A stretch of DNA of 64,000 bases from Porticoccaceae bacterium. Its GTDB lineage: Bacteria > Pseudomonadota > Gammaproteobacteria > Pseudomonadales > Porticoccaceae. The notes below the pieces were generated by a model. The model was not told the DNA's origin. It saw nothing but the letters and a program-made list of their open reading frames with translations, and searched no databases. Made by a program: the position numbers and the translations under genes. The stretch covers positions 335,545 to 399,544 of the forward strand of contig JAHEGD010000004.1 of assembly GCA_024639885.1 (NCBI GenBank). The letters run 5' to 3'. Below are positions 2,652 to 44,013 of this stretch, one piece after another. Each line of letters opens with the position of its first letter. Position 1 is the stretch's first letter.

Positions 2652-3575
2652 ATGCCAGAGTTAACCCCGCCAGCAGAACCGCGCCAGCGCGCCACGCTCA
2701 CCCAACAGTTTGGCCTGCACTCGACTGCTGAGCCGGCCTTCGCCGCACAGATAGCCGCCAGCGTGGCTGCCGCACTGGCCGAAGATATCGGCGATGGCGA
2801 TGTCACCGCCGCGCTGATACCGGCCGCACAGCGCGCCGAGGCGGTGGTGATCAGCCGCGAACCGGCGGTAGTCTGTGGCCGGCCGTGGGTCGATGCGGTG
2901 TTTGCCGCTGTCGATAGCCGGGTCGAGATTGAATGGCTGGTCAGTGAAGGGGAGCGCGTGGTCGCCGACCAACCACTGTTCAGATTGCGCGGCGCCAGCC
3001 GCTCGCTGCTGACCGGCGAGCGCTGCGCGCTCAACTTCTTGCAGACGCTGTCGGCTACCGCCACCACCGCCAGCGACTACGCGGCGCTGGCCGCGCCAGC
3101 CGGCATCGCCGTGCTCGACACCCGCAAGACCATCCCCGGGCTGCGCTATGCACAAAAATACGCAGTCGCTATCGGCGGCTGCTACAACCACCGCATCGGC
3201 CTGTTCGACGCCTTTTTGATAAAAGAGAACCACATCGCCGGCTGTGGCTCGATCGCCGCCGCGGTCGCCACCGCCCGCAGCCAGCAGCCGCAGCTAATGG
3301 TCGAGGTCGAGGTGGAGAACCTCGACGAGCTCGACCAAGCGATCGCCGCCGGCGCCGATCGGATTATGCTCGACAACTTCTCGGCCGAGCAGCTGCATGC
3401 AGTCGCCGAGCGCGATCTAGGCAGCTGCGAATTGGAGGTATCGGGCAACATCGAGGCGAGCGCGTTAGCGGCGCTGGGCAACAGTGCGGTGCACTTTATC
3501 TCCTCCGGCGCGCTGACCAAACACCTGCGCGCTATCGACCTATCGATGCGCCTGACGGTGATCGACAACGGCTAG
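2652..3575 (+). CDS. nadC: Nicotinate-nucleotide pyrophosphorylase (quinolinate PRTase)
   Basis: NadC makes nicotinate mononucleotide from quinolinate and PRPP in de novo NAD synthesis. The ORF track frame begins at 2109, but its first 180 codons lie antisense to ampD. The real protein starts at the ATG at 2652, giving 307 residues, close to E. coli NadC (297). Family blocks seen are ALAEDIGDGDVTAALIP, CALNFLQTLSATAT, VLDTRKTIPGLRYAQKYAV, LIKENHIAG and GADRIMLDNFS. Divergent from ampD and next to the pilin genes, as in pseudomonads. An in-frame ATG at 2622 is possible but overlaps the -10. Confidence 0.95.
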   Translation: MPELTPPAEPRQRATLTQQFGLHSTAEPAFAAQIAASVAAALAEDIGDGDVTAALIPAAQRAEAVVISREPAVVCGRPWVDAVFAAVDSRVEIEWLVSEGERVVADQPLFRLRGASRSLLTGERCALNFLQTLSATATTASDYAALAAPAGIAVLDTRKTIPGLRYAQKYAVAIGGCYNHRIGLFDAFLIKENHIAGCGSIAAAVATARSQQPQLMVEVEVENLDELDQAIAAGADRIMLDNFSAEQLHAVAERDLGSCELEVSGNIEASALAALGNSAVHFISSGALTKHLRAIDLSMRLTVIDNG

Positions 3576-3587
3576 GAAGCCGCGCAC

Positions 3588-3617
3588 AAAAAAGGCGAGC
3601 CGAAGCTCGCCTTTTTT
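3588..3617. terminator. Bidirectional rho-independent terminator
   Basis: A perfect 7-bp stem (GGCGAGC/GCTCGCC, CGAA loop) is flanked by six A's on one side and six T's on the other. It can end both nadC (plus) and the pilin gene (minus), which converge here. Confidence 0.9.
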
Positions 3618-3634
3618 ACCGTGCAACAGCCGGG

Positions 3635-4120
3635 TTATTCGGCAGCGGCGGCCCGACAGTTGGTCGGGAAGTACTTATTGAGGGCAACCGAGCTAGGCGC
3701 ACAGCTCCACTCGTAGACAGAGCCCTCGCTGGTGACGGTATCACCATCGCTATTCTTCGGGGTAAACACGACACTGCCGGCGTCCAGCACAGCGTTCGAG
3801 GTGCCCTGGACAGAGACGGTGATCACACCGCTGCTGACCGCGACACTCTTAACGTACTGCGAGGTGGCCGTGGCAGAGGCACAGCCCCAGGCGGTGTAGG
3901 TGGAGATGTTCTCGCTCTGGGCAACTTCTGAGACCTCTAGCTTACAGGGGGCGGCGGCCAGTACCACTTCAGACATCTTGGCGCGCAGCGTGTAGTCGTT
4001 GTACTGTGGTACCGCGACAGCGGCCAGAATGGCAATAATGGCTACCACGATCATCAGCTCGATCAGGGTGAAACCGGCCTGATTCGCCTTCATTTTTGTT
4101 GTGCGCTGAACAGCTTTCAT
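3635..4120 (-). CDS. pilA: Type IV major pilin (PilA-like)
   Basis: The product is a class-III-signal prepilin: a short basic leader ending in glycine, cleaved before phenylalanine in [19 protein letters not shown], with glutamate at +5 and one hydrophobic N-terminal helix. The mature part is about 145 residues. Two cysteines near the C-terminus (WSCAPSS and PTNCRA) can form the pilin disulfide loop, and another pair lies mid-domain. I keep the start at 4120 because AGGAGAGG lies just upstream. A shorter 7-residue leader (start MKANQAG) is possible but lacks a ribosome binding site. The gene sits opposite pilBCD, the usual pseudomonad arrangement. Confidence 0.92.
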
Positions 4121-4190
4121 ACACCTCTCCTTAATAAAATAGATACCCGCTGGGCTGCACCGATTGCGCCGCCCCGGTCAGGACCGCTCT

Positions 4191-4217
4191 AATATACCAA
4201 AAACAGCCGTTATTATA
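4191..4217 (-). promoter_or_regulatory. Candidate pilin promoter elements
   Basis: Reading toward pilA there is an extended -10 (TGGTATATT, box at 4191-4196) and, further upstream, a TATAAT (4211-4217 region). Neither has a convincing -35. Pseudomonad pilA is driven by sigma-54, but I found no clear TGGCAC-N5-TTGC element here. Confidence 0.3.
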
Positions 4218-4279
4218 ATGTCTCGGGGAAAATATTTAACCGGCCGCGCAGCGTGCCGCGCTCTCACCCCAAAACCGAG

Positions 4280-4308
4280 TTGCCAGCCGGCCGCGCCGCT
4301 GGTGTAAA
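4280..4308 (+). promoter_or_regulatory. Putative pilBCD promoter
   Basis: TTGCCA (4280-4285) and TGTAAA (4303-4308) are separated by 17 bp, about 38 bp before the pilB ATG. It would drive pilB-pilC-pilD-coaE-yacG. Confidence 0.45.
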
Positions 4309-4346
4309 CTGTCTAACTACAACTCGGCTTGGAAGATCCCTGTGCA

Positions 4347-6077
4347 ATGAGTGCCGCCAACCCCGTGCTACACGGTTTACCCCAGCGACTGGTCGCCGAG
4401 CGCCACCTCGATGAGCGCGCCGCCGCCGACCTGTTGGCGCGCGCCGCTACCGAGCGGCGCTCGCCACTGCTGGTGCTCTATGAGAGCAACCTTGTCGATG
4501 GCGCCCAGATCGCCGGCTGCGCAGGGCGAGAGTTTGGCTTGCCGGTCTACGACTTAACCAGCCACCAGCTGGATGCCGCGCCGCGCCACTTAGTCGACGC
4601 CAAGCTGCTGCGCAAACATACCGCACTGCCGCTCTACCGGCGCGGCAACCGCTTGTTTGTCGCCATCGGCGACCCCACCAACTACCAGGCGATCGCCGAG
4701 ATACAGTTTCAGACCGGCACCACCGTCGAGCCGGTGCTGTGCCGGCTAGACCAGCTGACTGCGCTGCTCGACCAATTTCTTGACGACCCCGCCGAGCGGG
4801 CGCTGGACGACACCCTCGGCACCATCGATGAGATCCACCTCGACGAGCTCGATATCGAGATGGGCGAGCCCGACGATGAGATTGACACCAACAGCAGCGG
4901 CCAAGACGACGCCCCGGTGGTCCGCTTTGTCAATAAGATGATGCTCGACGCCATTCGGCTCGGCGCGTCGGATATCCACTTTGAGCCTTATGAGAAGCAC
5001 TACCGAATCCGCTTTCGAATCGATGGCGTGCTCCAGGAGATCTCGCGCCCGCCGGTTAACTTGGCACCGCGGCTGGCTGCCCGCCTCAAGGTGATGTCGC
5101 GTATGGATATCTCCGAGCGGCGGGTACCCCAAGACGGCCGCATCAAGCTCAAGCTGTCAAAGAGCCGCGCCATCGACTTTCGGGTCAACAGCTTGCCGCT
5201 GCAATTTGGCGAGAAGATCGTGCTGCGAATTCTCGACCCCGCCTCGGCGCAGATGGGGCTCGATGCGCTCGGTTTTGAGCCAGATCAGCGCCAGCTTTAC
5301 CAACAGGCGCTCGACCGCCCACAGGGAATGATTCTGGTCACCGGGCCAACCGGTAGCGGCAAGACGGTCAGCCTCTACACCGGGCTCAACGCGCTCAATA
5401 ACGACGAGCGCAATATCTCTACCGCCGAAGACCCGGTCGAGATCAACATCGACGGCATCAACCAGGTACAGATCAACCTCAAGGTCGGGCTGACCTTCGC
5501 TGAGGCGCTGCGCTCGTTCTTGCGCCAAGACCCGGATGTGGTGATGGTCGGTGAGATACGCGACCTAGAGACTGCCGAGATCTCTATTAAAGCTGCCCAG
5601 ACGGGCCACTTAGTGCTGTCGACTCTGCACACCAACAGTGCCACAGAGACGCTCACCCGGTTGCTGAACATGGGGGTTGCCACCTTCAATGTGGCCACCT
5701 CGGTGTCGCTGATCATCGCCCAACGGCTGGCCCGCAAACTCTGCGACAACTGCAAAACTGCGCAGCCGCCGCTGCCGGCCACGATCCTCGCCGAACAGGG
5801 GCTAGACCAACTGGAGCTGGCTGCCAGCGAGCTGACCCTGTACAGCGCGGAGGGCTGTGAACAGTGCCGCGACGGCTACCGCGGGCGCATCGGCATCTAC
5901 GAAACACTGGCGATCAGCGAGCAGTTGGCCGCAGTCATTATGAGCGGTGCCAGCTCGCTGGAGACGCTAGCCGCCGCTAAAGCCGAGGGGTTTAAAACGC
6001 TCCGCTACAACGCCCTGCGCAAGGTAGCCGCCGGCATCATCAGCCTCGAAGAGGCCAACCGCATCACCCGCCAGTAA
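4347..6077 (+). CDS. pilB: Type IV pilus extension ATPase PilB
   Basis: PilB is the cytoplasmic hexameric GAF-family ATPase that powers pilus polymerisation. This product is about 576 residues, with an N-terminal T2SSE_N domain and a C-terminal ATPase core. Seen are the Walker A GPTGSGKTVSLY, the Asp box DEIDTN to RFVNKMMLDAIRLGASDIHFEP, Walker B PDVVMVGEIRDLETAE, the His box LVLSTLHTNSA, and the tetracysteine zinc site (CDNC and CEQC). I chose the ATG at 4347; the ORF track's TTG six codons earlier is less likely. It is the first gene of pilBCD. Confidence 0.95.
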   Translation: MSAANPVLHGLPQRLVAERHLDERAAADLLARAATERRSPLLVLYESNLVDGAQIAGCAGREFGLPVYDLTSHQLDAAPRHLVDAKLLRKHTALPLYRRGNRLFVAIGDPTNYQAIAEIQFQTGTTVEPVLCRLDQLTALLDQFLDDPAERALDDTLGTIDEIHLDELDIEMGEPDDEIDTNSSGQDDAPVVRFVNKMMLDAIRLGASDIHFEPYEKHYRIRFRIDGVLQEISRPPVNLAPRLAARLKVMSRMDISERRVPQDGRIKLKLSKSRAIDFRVNSLPLQFGEKIVLRILDPASAQMGLDALGFEPDQRQLYQQALDRPQGMILVTGPTGSGKTVSLYTGLNALNNDERNISTAEDPVEINIDGINQVQINLKVGLTFAEALRSFLRQDPDVVMVGEIRDLETAEISIKAAQTGHLVLSTLHTNSATETLTRLLNMGVATFNVATSVSLIIAQRLARKLCDNCKTAQPPLPATILAEQGLDQLELAASELTLYSAEGCEQCRDGYRGRIGIYETLAISEQLAAVIMSGASSLETLAAAKAEGFKTLRYNALRKVAAGIISLEEANRITRQ

Positions 6078-6087
6078 CCGCCAGCCG

Positions 6088-7302
6088 ATGCCCGAGCCAC
6101 GCCAAAAGAGCTTCAGTTACCGCGGCCGCGATCGCCACGGCAAGCCGGTCGACGGTGAGCTGACCAGTGCCGACCGCGAGACCGCGCGCAGCCAGCTGCG
6201 CCGCCAAGGCATTTTGGCTACGGCTATCCGGCCGCTCCGTGAGCCGCTGTTTAAGGCGCGCGACAAACCGATCAAGGCCGCCGATGTCGCCATCCTAACC
6301 CGCCAGCTGGCGACCATGATGCGCGCCGGGATTCCATTGGTGCAGAGCTTTGATGTGGTCGCCGACGGGCTCGACAACCCGGCCCTGGCGCGGGTGGTGA
6401 TGCAGCTGCGCGACGATGTCTCGGCCGGCAATAGCTTCACACAAGCGCTGCAAAAACACCCCAAATTATTCGATCCGCTCTACTGTAGTTTAATCGGTGC
6501 CGGCGAGAGTGCCGGTGCACTCGAGAGTATGCTCAGCCGGGTAGCCACCTACCGCGAAAAATCTGAGCAGCTCAAGGCCAAAATCAAGAAGGCACTCGCC
6601 TACCCGACGTTTGTGGTGTTGGTCGCGGTAGTGGTCACCTCGATCCTGCTGATTAAAGTGGTGCCGGTGTTTGCCGACACCTTCGCTAGTTTCGGCGCCG
6701 AGCTGCCACCGTTCACGCAGTGGGTAATGCGGCTGTCGAGCGCACTGCAAGCGAACTGGTGGTGGCTGCTTGCGCTGGCGGTGGCCGGCGGCTGGGGGCT
6801 GCGCCAGCTGCGGCTGCGCTCGGCGGCGTTCGCCTTCGCGCTCGATCGACTGGCACTCAAACTGCCGATTGTCGGCTCGATACTGGAGCGCGCTATCGTC
6901 GCGCGGTTTGCCCGCACCCTGGCGACCACCTTCGCCGCTGGGGTACCGCTAGTCGAGGCGCTCAACTCGGTCGCCGATGCGGCCGGCAACGCACTCTACC
7001 GACAGCATATTTTGCAGATACGCGACGATGTCACCACCGGTATCGCCCTGCACCGGGCGGTGCGAGCGCGAAAACTTTTCCCCTCGCTACTTGAGCAGAT
7101 GACCGCGATCGGCGAGGAGTCCGGCGCACTCGACGATATGCTCGAGAAAACCGCAGAGCACTTTGAGCAGTCGGTCGACAACTCGGTCGACAGCCTTACT
7201 GCGCTGCTCGAGCCGATGATTATGGCGGTGCTCGGCATCGTCGTCGGCGGGCTGCTGTTTGCCATGTACCTGCCGATCTTTCAGCTCGGCGCGATTGTTT
7301 AA
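6088..7302 (+). CDS. pilC: Type IV pilus inner-membrane platform protein PilC
   Basis: PilC is the polytopic platform that couples PilB and PilT ATPases to pilin addition and removal. This 404-residue product has two T2SSF domains, each with the signature seen as LIGAGESAGALESML and MTAIGEESGALDDML, and three long hydrophobic segments (about residues 170-190, 220-240 and 375-398). It starts 10 bp after pilB. Confidence 0.95.
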   Translation: MPEPRQKSFSYRGRDRHGKPVDGELTSADRETARSQLRRQGILATAIRPLREPLFKARDKPIKAADVAILTRQLATMMRAGIPLVQSFDVVADGLDNPALARVVMQLRDDVSAGNSFTQALQKHPKLFDPLYCSLIGAGESAGALESMLSRVATYREKSEQLKAKIKKALAYPTFVVLVAVVVTSILLIKVVPVFADTFASFGAELPPFTQWVMRLSSALQANWWWLLALAVAGGWGLRQLRLRSAAFAFALDRLALKLPIVGSILERAIVARFARTLATTFAAGVPLVEALNSVADAAGNALYRQHILQIRDDVTTGIALHRAVRARKLFPSLLEQMTAIGEESGALDDMLEKTAEHFEQSVDNSVDSLTALLEPMIMAVLGIVVGGLLFAMYLPIFQLGAIV

Positions 7303-7306
7303 CGGC

Positions 7307-8161
7307 ATGGGCAGCGCAACCATCGACATGTTGATCGCCGCCGGCCTGCTCGGGGCCGTCCTCGGCAGTTTTTACAACGTGGTCATTGCTCGGCTACCGG
7401 CAATGTTGGCGCGCGACTGGCAACAGCAGGCCGAGCAGCTGTTGGAGCTGCCCGATAGCACCGCCGCCGAGCCGCGGTTCAATTTGGTGGTGCCGCGCTC
7501 GCGCTGCCCGCACTGCCAGAGTGCGGTCGCCGCGCGCGACAATATTCCGCTGCTCAGCTTCGCGCTACTACGCGGCCGCTGCCGCCACTGCCGCGGCGCT
7601 ATCAGCTGGCGCTACCCAGCGGTAGAGCTGGCCAGCGCTGCGCTGGCGGCGGCGGTGGTTTGGCAGTTTGGGCTGACTGGCAACGCGCTGTTTGCGCTGG
7701 GCTTAGTCGGCATCTCGCTGATCTTGCTGGCGATAGACGCCGAGCACCAGCTGCTGCCCGATGCGCTGACGCTAGGGCTGCTGTGGCTCGGGCTGATCGC
7801 CAACCTCGATGGCCGGTTTGCCGCCAGCGGTGATGCCATAGTCGGCGCGGTAGCCGGCTACGGCGCATTGTGGCTGCTGTTCTGGGCGGTAAAATGGCTG
7901 ACCGGGCGCGATGCGATGGGCTACGGCGATTTTAAATACCTCGCTGCCATCGGCGCCTGGTTCGGTCTTGAAGGGGTGCTGGTGGGGCTGCTGATCGCCG
8001 CCACACTGGGCAGCCTGGTCGGTATCGGCGGCCGCCTGTGCGGCGCACTGGGGCGCTACCAAGAGGTCGCTTTCGGGCCGTACTTGGCGATCGCCGCTGT
8101 GATACTGCTATTTTTCCAACCGCTGTTAAGCAGCTGGCTATGGGGGGGATTGGGTGGCTGA
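7307..8161 (+). CDS. pilD: Prepilin peptidase / N-methyltransferase PilD
   Basis: PilD is the inner-membrane aspartyl protease that cleaves prepilin leaders and methylates the new N-terminus, so it processes the pilin encoded at 3.6-4.1 kb. Seen are the two-CxxC zinc motif (RCPHCQ and RCRHCR), and the catalytic aspartates in LLAIDAEHQLLPD and MGYGDFKYL. I chose the ATG at 7307, just after the pilC stop, giving 284 residues, instead of the track start inside pilC. Its 3' end overlaps coaE by 8 bp. Confidence 0.93.
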   Translation: MGSATIDMLIAAGLLGAVLGSFYNVVIARLPAMLARDWQQQAEQLLELPDSTAAEPRFNLVVPRSRCPHCQSAVAARDNIPLLSFALLRGRCRHCRGAISWRYPAVELASAALAAAVVWQFGLTGNALFALGLVGISLILLAIDAEHQLLPDALTLGLLWLGLIANLDGRFAASGDAIVGAVAGYGALWLLFWAVKWLTGRDAMGYGDFKYLAAIGAWFGLEGVLVGLLIAATLGSLVGIGGRLCGALGRYQEVAFGPYLAIAAVILLFFQPLLSSWLWGGLGG

Positions 8162-8789
8162 CCAACCATTTGTCGTCGGGCTGACCGGCGGTATCGGCTC
8201 AGGTAAAAGCAGTGTCGCTGCGCTGCTGCGCGAGCGCGGCGTCAGCGTTGTCGACGCCGATCAAGTGGCCCGCCAAGTGGTTGAGCCAGGCCAGCCGGCG
8301 CTGGCCGCTATCGCCGAGCACTTTGGCGCCCAGCTACTGCTCGCCGACGGCGGGCTCGACCGCGCCGCGCTGCGCCAAATCATCTTCACCGATCCGGCCG
8401 CCAAACAGTGGTTGGAGCAGCTTACCCACCCGCTGATCGGCACCGAGCTGAGCCGCCAACTGGCCGCCGCACCGCCGCCCTATGCAGTATTGGAGAGCCC
8501 ACTGCTGCTAGAGACCGAGCAGCACCAGCGCTGCGACGTGATCGTGGTGGTCGATGTGACGCCTGCCCAGCAGCTGGCCCGCGCCGCCCAGCGCGACGGC
8601 AACAGCGAGGCGCAGATCCAGCGCATCATCGACGCCCAACTGCCGCGCCCAGCGCGGTTGGCGCGCGCCGACTACGTGGTCGACAACAGCGCCAGCCCAG
8701 CGGCACTGGCCGGCCAGGTCGAACAGCTGCACCAGAGCCTGTGCGCCGCCAGCGCACAAACGTATAAAGAGAGCCGAGAGAACCCATGA
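8154..8789 (+). CDS. coaE: Dephospho-CoA kinase
   Basis: CoaE phosphorylates the 3'-hydroxyl of dephospho-CoA, the last step of coenzyme A synthesis. The 211-residue product begins with the P-loop [18 protein letters not shown] and continues with [10 protein letters not shown] and the LESPLLLET lid region of the family. The GTG start overlaps the pilD stop, so translation is probably coupled. Adjacent to pilD and yacG, as in many gammaproteobacteria. Confidence 0.95.
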
Positions 8790-40794: not shown

Positions 40795-40824
40795 AAAATA
40801 GTAATCCGACCTATAGCCGATTAC
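40795..40824 (-). terminator. Weak candidate terminator after the glutaredoxin gene
   Basis: GTAATC/GATTAC arms around a 12-base loop begin within the glutaredoxin stop codon and are followed on the minus strand by TATTTTTTAT. The stem is only 6 bp. Confidence 0.4.
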
Positions 40825-41150
40825 GCCTCGGGCTGGCCAGCCATCGCCTCGTCAACTAGCGGCTTGAGCTCGCCGGCCTCGTGCATCTCGGTGATGATGT
40901 CACAGCCACCGACCAGCTCGCCGTTTACCCACAGCTGCGGGAAAGTCGGCCAGTTGCCGTACTGCGGCAGGTTGGCGCGGATCTCTGGGTTGCTGAGCAC
41001 ATCGACATAGGCAAAACGCTGGCCACAGGCCATCAGCGCCTGCACGGTGCGCGCCGAAAAACCACACTGTGGCTGGTTGGGCGAGCCCTTCATGTAGAGA
41101 ATGATCGGGTTGTTCTCTACCTGGTCGCGAATGGTATCCATGATCTCCAT
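40821..41150 (-). CDS. grxD: Monothiol CGFS glutaredoxin (Grx4/GrxD-like)
   Basis: The 109-residue product has the Fe-S glutaredoxin signature: ILYMKGSPNQPQCGFSART, then WPTFPQLWVNGELVGGCDI. CGFS glutaredoxins carry [2Fe-2S] clusters and work in iron-sulfur trafficking and iron sensing. It is divergent from the porin gene, and the Fur-box-like dyads lie between them, about 130-170 bp from this start, so iron control of this gene is possible but not shown. Confidence 0.95.
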   Translation of the reverse strand: MEIMDTIRDQVENNPIILYMKGSPNQPQCGFSARTVQALMACGQRFAYVDVLSNPEIRANLPQYGNWPTFPQLWVNGELVGGCDIITEMHEAGELKPLVDEAMAGQPEA

Positions 41151-41276: not shown

Positions 41277-41297
41277 AAATGAGAATTAGTTGCATTT
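41277..41297. promoter_or_regulatory. Fur-box-like dyad 1
   Basis: AAATGAGAAT-T-AGTTGCATTT matches the extended iron box AAATGAGAATnATTCTCATTT in 7 of 10 right-arm positions and all left-arm positions. It is 60-80 bp before the porin ATG. Confidence 0.65.
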
Positions 41298-41303
41298 GCT
41301 ATT

Positions 41304-41318
41304 TGATAGCGGTTATCA
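41304..41318. promoter_or_regulatory. Fur-box-like dyad 2
   Basis: TGATAGC-G-GTTATCA is a near-perfect 7-1-7 inverted repeat of the Fur consensus TGATAATnATTATCA (11 of 14). It is 38 bp before the porin ATG and 6 bp after dyad 1, an arrangement common at Fur-repressed promoters. Confidence 0.7.
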
Positions 41319-41356
41319 TTCGCGCATCAAATGACACGACCTACTTGGAGTCCGCT

Positions 41357-42625
41357 ATGCCCCGCACCACCCGCGCTGTTTTGGCCAACACCCGCCGCCC
41401 CCTCGCCATCGCTCTCACCACCCTGCTCGCCGCACCACTGGCCAGCGCGGCCGGCAGCACCCCCACCCTAGAGGAGATGTGGCAGCTAATTCAAACTCAA
41501 AACCGCGAGATTGCCGAGCTGCGCAGCGAGCTGGCCAGCAGCCGCTCGCAGATCCAAGAGACCGCCGTGCAGGCCGAGGTCGCCGTCAGTGCGATAGAGT
41601 CGCTGCAATCGGTTGCGACCAGCAGCGCTAACAAGACCCATATCGGCGGCTACGGCGAGCTCCACTACAACCAGCTCAGCAAAGCCGATGGCGGCCGCAA
41701 AGACCAGATCGACTTCCACCGTTTTGTACTTTACGCCAACCACCAGTTCAGCGACTCGCTGCGGCTAGTCTCTGAGCTCGAGCTCGAGCACTCGATCGCC
41801 GGCGATGGCCAGCCGGGTGAGATCGAGCTGGAGCAAGCCTATATAGAGTGGGACTACGCGCCGCGCCAGCAGGCTAAGCTGGGGCTATTTTTGATCCCAG
41901 TTGGGATGACCAACGAGACCCACGAGCCGGAGACCTTTTACGGCGTCGAGCGCAACAACGTTGAGAAAAACATCATCCCGACCACCTGGTGGGAGGGCGG
42001 CGCGATGCTCTCCGGCCGCTGGGGCGAAGGCTTTAGCTACGATGCCGGCGTCCACTCCGGGCTGTTCTTAGATCCAGCTGCCGACACCTACAAGGTGCGC
42101 AGTGGCCGCCAGAAAGTCGGCGAGGCCAACGCCACCGACTTCGCCTACACCGGCCGGCTGCGCTACACCGGCGTGCCCGGGCTGAGCCTGTCGGTCAGCG
42201 CCCAGTACCAGACCGACCTGTTCCAGGGTGAGCTGCACGCCGACAGCGGCGCCGCCGACATCTCGGCGACCCTGATTGAGGGAAATTTCAGCTGGCAGCG
42301 CGGCGACTTCGGCCTGCGCGGGCTCTACGCCCAGTGGGATATCGACTCCGCGATCAACCAGATTAAAGCCGGCGCCGACCAGCAGAGCGGTTACTTTATT
42401 GAGCCAAGCTACCAGCTCAACGACAAGCTCGGGCTGTTCGCTCGCTACAGCGCCTGGGACAACCTCGCCGGCAGCAGTGCCAGCGACAGCGAGACCACCC
42501 AGTGGGATATCGGCCTCAACTACTACCTGCACCCGCGCGTAGTGATCAAGGCCGACTACCAGAACCAAGACGCCGCCAGTGGCGCCCAAGACGGTCTCAA
42601 TGTCGGTGTCGGCTACTCGTTCTAA
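41357..42625 (+). CDS. Outer-membrane porin with N-terminal coiled coil
   Basis: The 422-residue precursor has a signal peptide ending in LASAAG (about residue 32), a short helical region (about 35-75, LEEMWQLIQTQNREIAELRSE) typical of trimeric coiled coils in DcaP/OprP-like porins, and a beta-barrel rich in alternating aromatic residues ending VGVGYSF, with the terminal phenylalanine needed for BAM insertion. GGAG lies 6 bases before the ATG. Two Fur-box-like dyads precede it. Substrate is unknown; iron-chelate or other uptake under iron starvation is inferred. Confidence 0.85.
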   Translation: MPRTTRAVLANTRRPLAIALTTLLAAPLASAAGSTPTLEEMWQLIQTQNREIAELRSELASSRSQIQETAVQAEVAVSAIESLQSVATSSANKTHIGGYGELHYNQLSKADGGRKDQIDFHRFVLYANHQFSDSLRLVSELELEHSIAGDGQPGEIELEQAYIEWDYAPRQQAKLGLFLIPVGMTNETHEPETFYGVERNNVEKNIIPTTWWEGGAMLSGRWGEGFSYDAGVHSGLFLDPAADTYKVRSGRQKVGEANATDFAYTGRLRYTGVPGLSLSVSAQYQTDLFQGELHADSGAADISATLIEGNFSWQRGDFGLRGLYAQWDIDSAINQIKAGADQQSGYFIEPSYQLNDKLGLFARYSAWDNLAGSSASDSETTQWDIGLNYYLHPRVVIKADYQNQDAASGAQDGLNVGVGYSF

Positions 42626-43156
42626 ATGACCGCGCGCGCCCGCCAACTGCTAACCGCCGCCGCGCTACTGGCCAGCCTCTGGCTGAGCGCTGGCGCGCGG
42701 GCCGAGGTCTATCTGAGTCAGGCCGAATTTACCCAGCGCTACTTTAGCGAGCCCCCAGCCGCCGGCCAGCTGTGGCTGACCGACGAGCTCAAGCAGCAGG
42801 CCAAGCGCCTGCTCGGCCGCCAGCCGGCCGGGCTGCGGGTGCGCTACCAGCGCTCTACCGACGGCCTGCGCAGCGCCTGGGTAATGAACGAGATCGGCAA
42901 AGAGCTGCCGATCACCATCGGTGTGGTGGTTGAGGGCGAGCGGATTGTCGCGGTCGAGATCCTCGCTTTTCGCGAGAGCCGCGGCTGGGAGGTGCGCTTC
43001 CCCGCTTATACCGCCCAGTACCGCGGCGCGGCGCTAGACGGCGAGCGGCTGAGTGAAAACATCGACGGCATCACCGGCGCCACCTTATCGGTGCGCGCCG
43101 TCAATGCAGTTGCTAAACTAGCGCTCTTTTACGCACAGCAGCTGGCGCCGAGCTAA
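42626..43156 (+). CDS. Periplasmic FMN-binding domain protein
   Basis: The 176-residue precursor has a signal peptide (to GARA|E, about residue 26) and an FMN_bind domain with the flavinylation motif SENIDGITGATLSVRAV, where a threonine is covalently linked to FMN by ApbE in known homologues (RnfG, NqrC, FMN-binding reductases). The ATG directly follows the porin stop without a gap, so translation is probably coupled. No apbE gene is in the window. Likely role: carry electrons in the periplasm, with the PepSY protein next to it. Confidence 0.88.
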   Translation: MTARARQLLTAAALLASLWLSAGARAEVYLSQAEFTQRYFSEPPAAGQLWLTDELKQQAKRLLGRQPAGLRVRYQRSTDGLRSAWVMNEIGKELPITIGVVVEGERIVAVEILAFRESRGWEVRFPAYTAQYRGAALDGERLSENIDGITGATLSVRAVNAVAKLALFYAQQLAPS

Positions 43157-43182
43157 CTCGGCGCTGCAGCCCGGGGAGAGCA

Positions 43183-43914
43183 ATGGCTAAAAAATACCGC
43201 ACCACAGCCGCGATGCGCTGGCACAGCCGCGTCGGCGTCGCGCTATTTTGGCTGCTGGTGCTGCTGTCGCTGACCGGTATTGCGCTCAACCACACCGACC
43301 GGCTCGGGCTCGCCAAAATCTCGTTGCAAGCACCGCTGCTGCTCGACTGGTATGGGCTAGACGCCGCACCGGCTGAGCGCGCCAGTTTGCACGGCCGCGA
43401 CTACCAGCTGCAGAGTTACTACAGCGGCGCGCAGCCGGTCGGCTCGCTGTACAGTGATGGCCGCGCCGTCGCCGCCTGCCCGCCGCCGCTGCACAGCGCC
43501 GTCGCCCTGCCCGGCGAGCCGGCGCTGAGCGCCGTGCTCTGCAACGATGAGCTACTGCTGATCACCGCCGACGCACAATTGCTGGACAGCTGGCAAGTGG
43601 TTGCCGGCCTGCCCAGTGGTCTGCGCGCGCTAAGCTGGGAGAACCAACAGCTGGTCGGCCGGCACAGCGACGGCAGCGGCTGGGCGCTCGATACCACTCA
43701 ATTTACCGCCACGGCGGTGGCCGCCGCACCAGCGCTGGCCAGTAGCCCAAGCGCAGCGCCGGCGGCCGGGGTGTCACTACAGACGCTACTGCTCGACCTG
43801 CACAGCGGCCGCCTGTTTGGCGCCGCCGGGGTCTGGGTGGTCGACATCGCCGGACTGCTGTTCTGCCTGCTGGCGCTGACCGGTTTGTGGAGCGTGGTCA
43901 AACGGCCGCGCTGA
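43183..43914 (+). CDS. PepSY-associated transmembrane protein
   Basis: The 243-residue product has a basic cytoplasmic N-terminus, a transmembrane segment (about 18-37, WHSRVGVALFWLLVLLSLTG), a periplasmic region of about 175 residues, and a second transmembrane segment (about 217-237). WHxxxG and the terminal HSGRLFG-x-W pattern fit PepSY-TM proteins. Histidines near both membrane helices could bind heme. GGGGAGAG precedes the ATG. Third gene of the Fur-box cluster; partner of the FMN-binding protein by inference. Confidence 0.8.
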   Translation: MAKKYRTTAAMRWHSRVGVALFWLLVLLSLTGIALNHTDRLGLAKISLQAPLLLDWYGLDAAPAERASLHGRDYQLQSYYSGAQPVGSLYSDGRAVAACPPPLHSAVALPGEPALSAVLCNDELLLITADAQLLDSWQVVAGLPSGLRALSWENQQLVGRHSDGSGWALDTTQFTATAVAAAPALASSPSAAPAAGVSLQTLLLDLHSGRLFGAAGVWVVDIAGLLFCLLALTGLWSVVKRPR

Positions 43915-43992
43915 GCCCAATTGCCAGCAACGGCAAACGCCGTTACCATTCCAACCCGCCCGGCACTAGCCGCGGCGTCGATCACCATCCCG

Positions 43993-44013
43993 GGCAGCAA
44001 GGCTGCCTTTTTT
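43993..44013 (+). terminator. Rho-independent terminator of the porin cluster
   Basis: GGCAGC-AAG-GCTGCC followed by TTTTTT, 79 bp after the PepSY-gene stop and before argD. Confidence 0.85.

Follow-up and report, generated by a model that had tools for sequence, protein, structure and literature searches.

Iron uptake in Gram-negative bacteria is told mostly through TonB-dependent receptors. A three-gene run on contig JAHEGD010000004.1 of a Porticoccaceae bacterium (assembly GCA_024639885.1) raises the question of whether iron may also follow another line, entering through a porin and being reduced in the periplasm. The run lies in a stretch of 64,000 nucleotides (positions 335,545 to 399,544 of the contig; the whole stretch analysed is called the window hereafter) and consists of genes for a porin, a secreted flavin mononucleotide (FMN)-binding protein and a PepSY_TM protein, preceded by two Fur-like dyads. 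The answer we reach is that these genes probably form a Fur-repressed operon for a periplasmic ferric reductase that feeds FeoB and has its own porin for entry. There is good support for the regulation and for the gene unit; the proposed reduction draws on what is known of the protein families (PMC8238504, PMC12004947) and on a link to Feo; that the porin carries iron is what we infer.

The three genes form a conserved unit

An earlier note on this DNA had described a run of porin, FMN-binding and PepSY genes ending at a terminator, and had proposed that the three genes form a unit, to be checked by synteny. The three genes pass the Pfam cut-offs and the run is closed by a stem followed by five T residues (Table 1). 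The first base of the FMN_bind gene is the one that follows the porin stop codon, with no gap between the two. Note that the longest open reading frame (ORF) of the porin begins within the first dyad, at 41279; this start was set aside, the likely one being the ATG at 41357, which is followed by a signal peptide.

The synteny check came out in favour of a unit. Among 17 relatives holding a homologue of the FMN-binding protein, 16 keep the trio order, the FMN gene following the porin gene on the same strand; the PepSY gene comes third in all but one of these 16, and that one is cut by the contig end before the PepSY gene. The exception among the 17 (L038) holds only a distant FMN homologue. A scan of the collection gave 80 further loci, a few of them from the same genomes as the first set of relatives: the trio is complete in 70 and interrupted by a contig end in three, while the porin is missing from three and the PepSY gene from four. 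Clustering of the ORFs around these 80 loci yielded no other gene family nearly as frequent near the trio; an apparent fourth cluster proved to be a reading frame antisense to the trio itself and was discarded. The FMN family is present in 64 of the 274 gammaproteobacterial genomes sampled by an even draw, marine lineages included, and a search for plasmid-borne relatives of the FMN protein with the window sequence found none. Altogether, the trio is a conserved module and is well supported as one unit. In two Moraxellaceae loci, L073 (2456-3637) and L080 (2132-3334), another member of the porin family adjoins the trio on the opposite strand.

The recurrence of the porin bears on a different explanation, according to which TonB-dependent receptors deliver siderophores whose iron is removed by the FMN/PepSY pair, as by FoxB, and the porin serves for general permeability or for the release of the empty ligand. 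The host genome contains 27 TonB plug domains, the PepSY_TM protein of the window is the only one that it encodes, and PepSY_TM genes of Alteromonas adjoin iron-regulated TonB receptors (PMC7190382), all of which would suit such a role. However, it is the porin that recurs beside the trio in the 80 loci and not a TonB receptor family, and the window protein does not have the four-helix, double PepSY layout of FoxB; we consider that siderophore stripping is unlikely.

A predicted Fur-type site is conserved upstream of the porin gene

The two dyads that the earlier note had placed directly before the run were located (Table 1); both lie between the porin gene and a divergent grxD-type gene, and a -10-like TATCAT (41314-41319), picked out by eye and absent from the promoter scan list, overlaps the second. 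A Fur-like box is present upstream of the porin in 15 of the 16 related loci. The consensus of the site before the porin in relatives, AAATGA(G/T)AATNATTTGCATTT, is matched by the window site at 41277 at all but one of its 20 positions, and none of 1000 shuffles did as well. With up to three mismatches, this consensus has one match in the whole host genome (an assembly of 2.2 Mb in 39 contigs, 98% complete), which is the window site, and the reversed-pattern control has none. In 55 independent loci, with p-values computed against dinucleotide shuffles, the consensus is found before the porin in 43 at p ≤ 0.05 and in 39 at p ≤ 0.01, the corresponding figures for control stretches inside the porin gene of the same loci being 1 and 0. 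The canonical 15-mer, which is independent of the relatives, gave 29 of 59 loci at p ≤ 0.05 and 17 of 59 at p ≤ 0.01, with 2 and 0 inside genes.

Judged by the host genome on its own, the dyads would be no more than suggestive: the strict Escherichia coli 19-mer Fur consensus, which is too strict for the host lineage, is matched nowhere in the window even when three mismatches are allowed, and most of the best canonical 15-mer matches that we checked in the rest of the genome fall within genes. Over the host genome, this 15-mer is found 47 times, a modest excess over the 29 matches of its reversed control. What makes the Fur-type site firm is the consensus drawn from the relatives, its unique match in the genome and its recurrence at homologous loci. 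A Fur-type operator is thus predicted upstream of the operon and kept in orthologous loci, and the host encodes one Fur, along with a second Fur-family, Zur-like protein, so that the operon can be placed in a putative Fur regulon. The Fur-type control advanced by the earlier note is supported by this conserved predicted box; the same note had held that homologous clusters without iron boxes, or tied to another pathway, would speak against it, and the loci turned out in its favour.

Neighbouring genes connect the trio with iron uptake

In several genomes, feoAB is preceded by a like box or lies within the trio locus. More specifically, (i) in one relative (G006) the pattern has only two matches in the genome, one before the trio and one before feoAB; (ii) in the host, which encodes FeoB, a Fur-like box is found about 60 bases upstream of feoAB, and the dyad is also present in the nearest relatives; (iii) in another genome (G021) feoAB is the divergent neighbour of the trio, with a box on either side. 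No single locus connects the trio with ferrous uptake more clearly than a betaproteobacterial contig (L095, 2054-6989), where hemP, feoB, feoA, the porin gene, the FMN gene and a gene for a short cytochrome-b-like protein follow one another in one run; in keeping with this single run, no box stands directly before its porin. The fur gene itself is divergent from the porin in a Gallionellales locus (L099, by Pfam) and in one named Sideroxydans (L078, by eye). In two Oceanobacter loci (L045 and L053, about 2900-8200), the FMN and PepSY genes come after a di-heme peroxidase gene and an imelysin gene lies opposite, both called by Pfam in L053 and by eye in L045; a TauE/SafE-type permease gene is also found beside the pair, and the place of the porin is taken. 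The imelysin family has been linked to iron uptake (PMC3143127). The presence of feoAB, hemP, fur and imelysin genes at homologous loci supports the iron role of the trio, as the earlier note had it. FeoB is encoded by 12 of the 17 genomes with the trio and by 9 of the 21 without it.

The peroxidase neighbours call to mind an iron-sparing electron outlet, in which, under iron starvation, the flavoprotein would replace c-type cytochromes and pass its electrons not to iron but to acceptors in the periplasm, di-heme peroxidases for example. In L053 the FMN gene has a CCP_MauG gene next to it, the run on an Ideonella plasmid described below includes one too, a similar gene is found in L045, and an economy of flavin for heme has been proposed (PMC8238504). 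Yet few loci have peroxidase neighbours, those of L045 and L053 are accompanied by imelysin (PMC3143127), and the Feo and HemP links indicate uptake, which leaves the electron outlet a quite improbable function. We give even less credit to a reductase acting on copper or another metal for oxidase assembly, for which the precedent is CrpH of Bordetella, a PepSY_TM protein tied to copper (PMC13038864): the box is of the Fur type, feoAB is preceded by one like it, and no copper gene family recurs nearby, with one P-type ATPase near L095.

The flavoprotein and its putative membrane partner

The FMN protein carries a signal peptide and, at residues 147-155, the DGITGATLS motif pointed out by the earlier note; among 17 homologues, D147, I149 and G151-S155 are invariant and G148 and T150 are kept in more than 90%. 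With a secreted FMN_bind domain, a D-G-x-(S/T)-G-A-T motif and an ApbE encoded in the genome, it is, judging from its sequence, a likely ApbE substrate. The single apbE gene of the host (G000:C29) lies away from the operon; another of the three FMN_bind genes of the genome is found about 3 kb from it on contig C29, an arrangement that would fit an nqr operon. Flavinylation is supported by a divergent version of the run on the Ideonella dechloratans plasmid NZ_CP088082.1 (L225, 2640-7027), where apbE adjoins the FMN gene in the order CcP, porin, FMN, ApbE and small membrane protein. This Ideonella run adjoins a two-component system and a TonB receptor. By profile, the best solved relatives of the FMN protein are RnfG subunits, with weak matches.

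The model of the PepSY_TM protein displays two helices and a beta-propeller-like middle domain in the periplasm (predicted local distance difference test score, pLDDT, 86.4 overall and above 90 over most of the domain); the name of the fold is tentative because the propeller matches found by Foldseek have low TM-scores. His14, His37 and His207 are conserved in 47-48 of 48 homologues and are likely heme ligands, and the combination of two helices and three histidines suggests a dimer, which could provide paired histidines. These three residues argue for the membrane electron-transfer role that had been assigned to the protein in the earlier note. Its likeness to the PepSY proteins held in part: the PepSY-associated membrane region is there, but in the model a beta-propeller-like domain stands where FoxB has PepSY domains, and there are two helices only. 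The C-terminal helix with a conserved histidine does align with FoxB of Pseudomonas aeruginosa (7abw; E 0.008, profile positions 207-246), but FoxB has four helices, two PepSY domains and two His-ligated hemes, whereas the window protein has two helices, three conserved histidines and the propeller-like domain; it does not belong with the FoxB-type siderophore reductases.

Four loci in which the PepSY gene is missing tell what may stand in for it. In L099 its place is held by a short b561-type cytochrome (PF01292 over the cut-off, weak DUF4405), in L095 and L078 by short membrane proteins that look similar by eye, and no substitute was found nearby in L116; the small membrane protein that ends the Ideonella run is weakly DUF4405-like. 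Such an exchange between membrane cytochromes would be expected if the protein serves in electron transfer.

The porin

The porin has a signal peptide, an N-terminal coiled coil and a 16-strand OprP-like barrel (AlphaFold2, pLDDT 84.6), and the best fold match of the model in the PDB is OprP (2o4v, E 7.6e-15). Both Pfam and the model bear out the earlier statement that it has no TonB plug domain; with 16 strands against the 22 of the barrel of a TonB-dependent receptor, and no plug, it is not a member of that class. The 16-strand fold is shared with OprP/OprO, but the sequence match to the solved OprO is very weak (E about 5) and, unlike them, the window porin is under predicted Fur-type control and has many conserved acidic and histidine residues. 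The Porin_O_P profile is matched by 42 of 52 relatives, the window porin itself having no match. The likely constriction loop L3 is strongly conserved, 20 of its 32 positions reaching 90% conservation or more across 52 homologues (hypergeometric p 5e-7). An iron-specific reading of the loop was dropped: as it is common to porins outside trios, it is no iron signature and does not indicate the substrate.

Features and surroundings of the operon

Upstream of the porin, the divergent genes encode a glutaredoxin (grxD type; 40821-41150) and then a peroxiredoxin, and an argD-like aminotransferase gene and argF lie downstream on the terminator side; otherwise the trio sits in an ordinary gene neighbourhood common to close relatives. 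Since the boxes lie between this glutaredoxin gene and the porin gene, Fur might act on the former as well. No Rfam match to an RNA element was found near the operon.

Table 1. Positions in the window of the operon genes and of the sites discussed in the text
Feature	Positions	Strand	Details
Fur-type box 1	41277-41297	+	AAATGAGAATTAGTTGCATTT; matches the consensus of relatives at 19/20
Fur-type box 2	41304-41318	+	TGATAGCGGTTATCA; matches the 7-1-7 Fur consensus at 11/14; also present in L022, the nearest relative
Porin	41357-42625	+	Porin_4, 39.3 bits (cut-off 27)
Likely constriction loop L3	41894-41989	+	porin residues 180-211, IPVGMTNETHEPETFYGVERNNVEKNIIPTTW; between model strands 5 and 6
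FMN_bind protein	42626-43156	+	PF04205, 35.4 bits (cut-off 22)
Codons of DGITGATLS	43064-43090	+	predicted FMN-threonine site, residues 147-155
PepSY_TM protein	43183-43914	+	PepSY_TM, 49.3 bits (cut-off 28.8); PF03929 and PF16357 both over cut-off
Intrinsic terminator	43992-44008	+	7-pair stem, then T5; about 80 bases past the last stop

Discussion

The mechanism that we propose would run as follows. When iron is scarce, Fur would leave both boxes and all three genes would be made. The porin would give small iron species, perhaps the chelate proposed in the earlier note or else Fe2+, a way across the outer membrane; its cargo may also be another solute. Electrons drawn from the quinol pool, or supplied by some other donor in the inner membrane, would cross the membrane via heme on the PepSY_TM protein, as the conserved histidines and the FoxB family suggest, and would reach the FMN that the ApbE motif predicts to be held covalently by the secreted flavoprotein. 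Periplasmic Fe(III), either free or in weak chelates, may then be reduced by this FMN, and the resulting Fe(II) would enter through FeoB, where it is encoded, or through another importer.

Several observations weigh against this proposal: in 12 of the 55 loci the porin is not preceded by a clear box; 5 of the 17 trio genomes lack FeoB, whose association with the trio is modest, and feoB lies within the same fetched stretch as the trio in only 4 of 97 loci; the conserved porin loop is also found in relatives outside trios; and with so many TonB plug domains in the host genome a porin route for iron is not obviously needed.

The window operon conforms to what has been called a PepSY-like flavinylation system, a PF03929/PF16357 protein clustered with an FMN_bind gene. 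Such systems were described by Meheust and co-workers in 2021, with Fur control known for some (PMC8238504), and iron reduction by the FMN/PepSY pair is not new since it was proposed there. The clusters of that paper contain DUF2271, DUF4198, ApbE, VIT1 or TonB receptors, and the word porin is absent from its text; in contrast, the window operon has a porin as its constant first gene and the ApbE elsewhere in the genome. Two systems share with it a PepSY-family membrane protein that is a Fur target and helps under chelation: the Fur-regulated Caulobacter cluster CCNA_03155-03159, needed with ethylenediaminetetraacetate, and Vibrio VciB, which promotes ferric reduction feeding ferrous uptake (PMC12004947). 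The Caulobacter cluster, compared with the window operon by description, differs in its DUF2271 and DUF4198 proteins, and a porin is not reported.

Porins, for their part, have been connected with iron in other settings. In E. coli, diffusion through OmpC/OmpF plus ferrous import by FeoB forms an iron route (PMC7315122), but these are general porins outside any reductase operon, whereas the window porin is an operon member. In Bacteroides, the genes BT2473-2482 (porin, thiol oxidoreductase and imelysin M75) go up 69- to 324-fold in iron depletion (PMC10434189). A Parabacteroides plasmid (L227, 2881-6860), likened to BT2473-2482 by its similar gene content, has a porin that the profile of the window porin matches at 130 bits, beside imelysin and di-heme oxidoreductase genes; the part examined contains no FMN/PepSY pair. 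We found neither a fixed porin-FMN-PepSY trio nor its tie to feoAB in the open-access literature searched, which is weak evidence of absence. What is added here is the porin as a fixed member of the operon and the link to Feo.

A broader proposal, plausible but tentative, is that one operon holds a dedicated, TonB-independent line of reductive iron uptake, made of a porin, a flavinylated ferric reductase and a heme electron donor, feeding FeoB and using interchangeable membrane cytochromes, in about a quarter of the sampled gammaproteobacteria and some betaproteobacteria. If true, it would explain how weakly bound iron can be used without siderophores, many orphan FMN_bind and PepSY_TM proteins would gain a role, and the proposed link between flavinylation by ApbE and iron assimilation would become directly testable.
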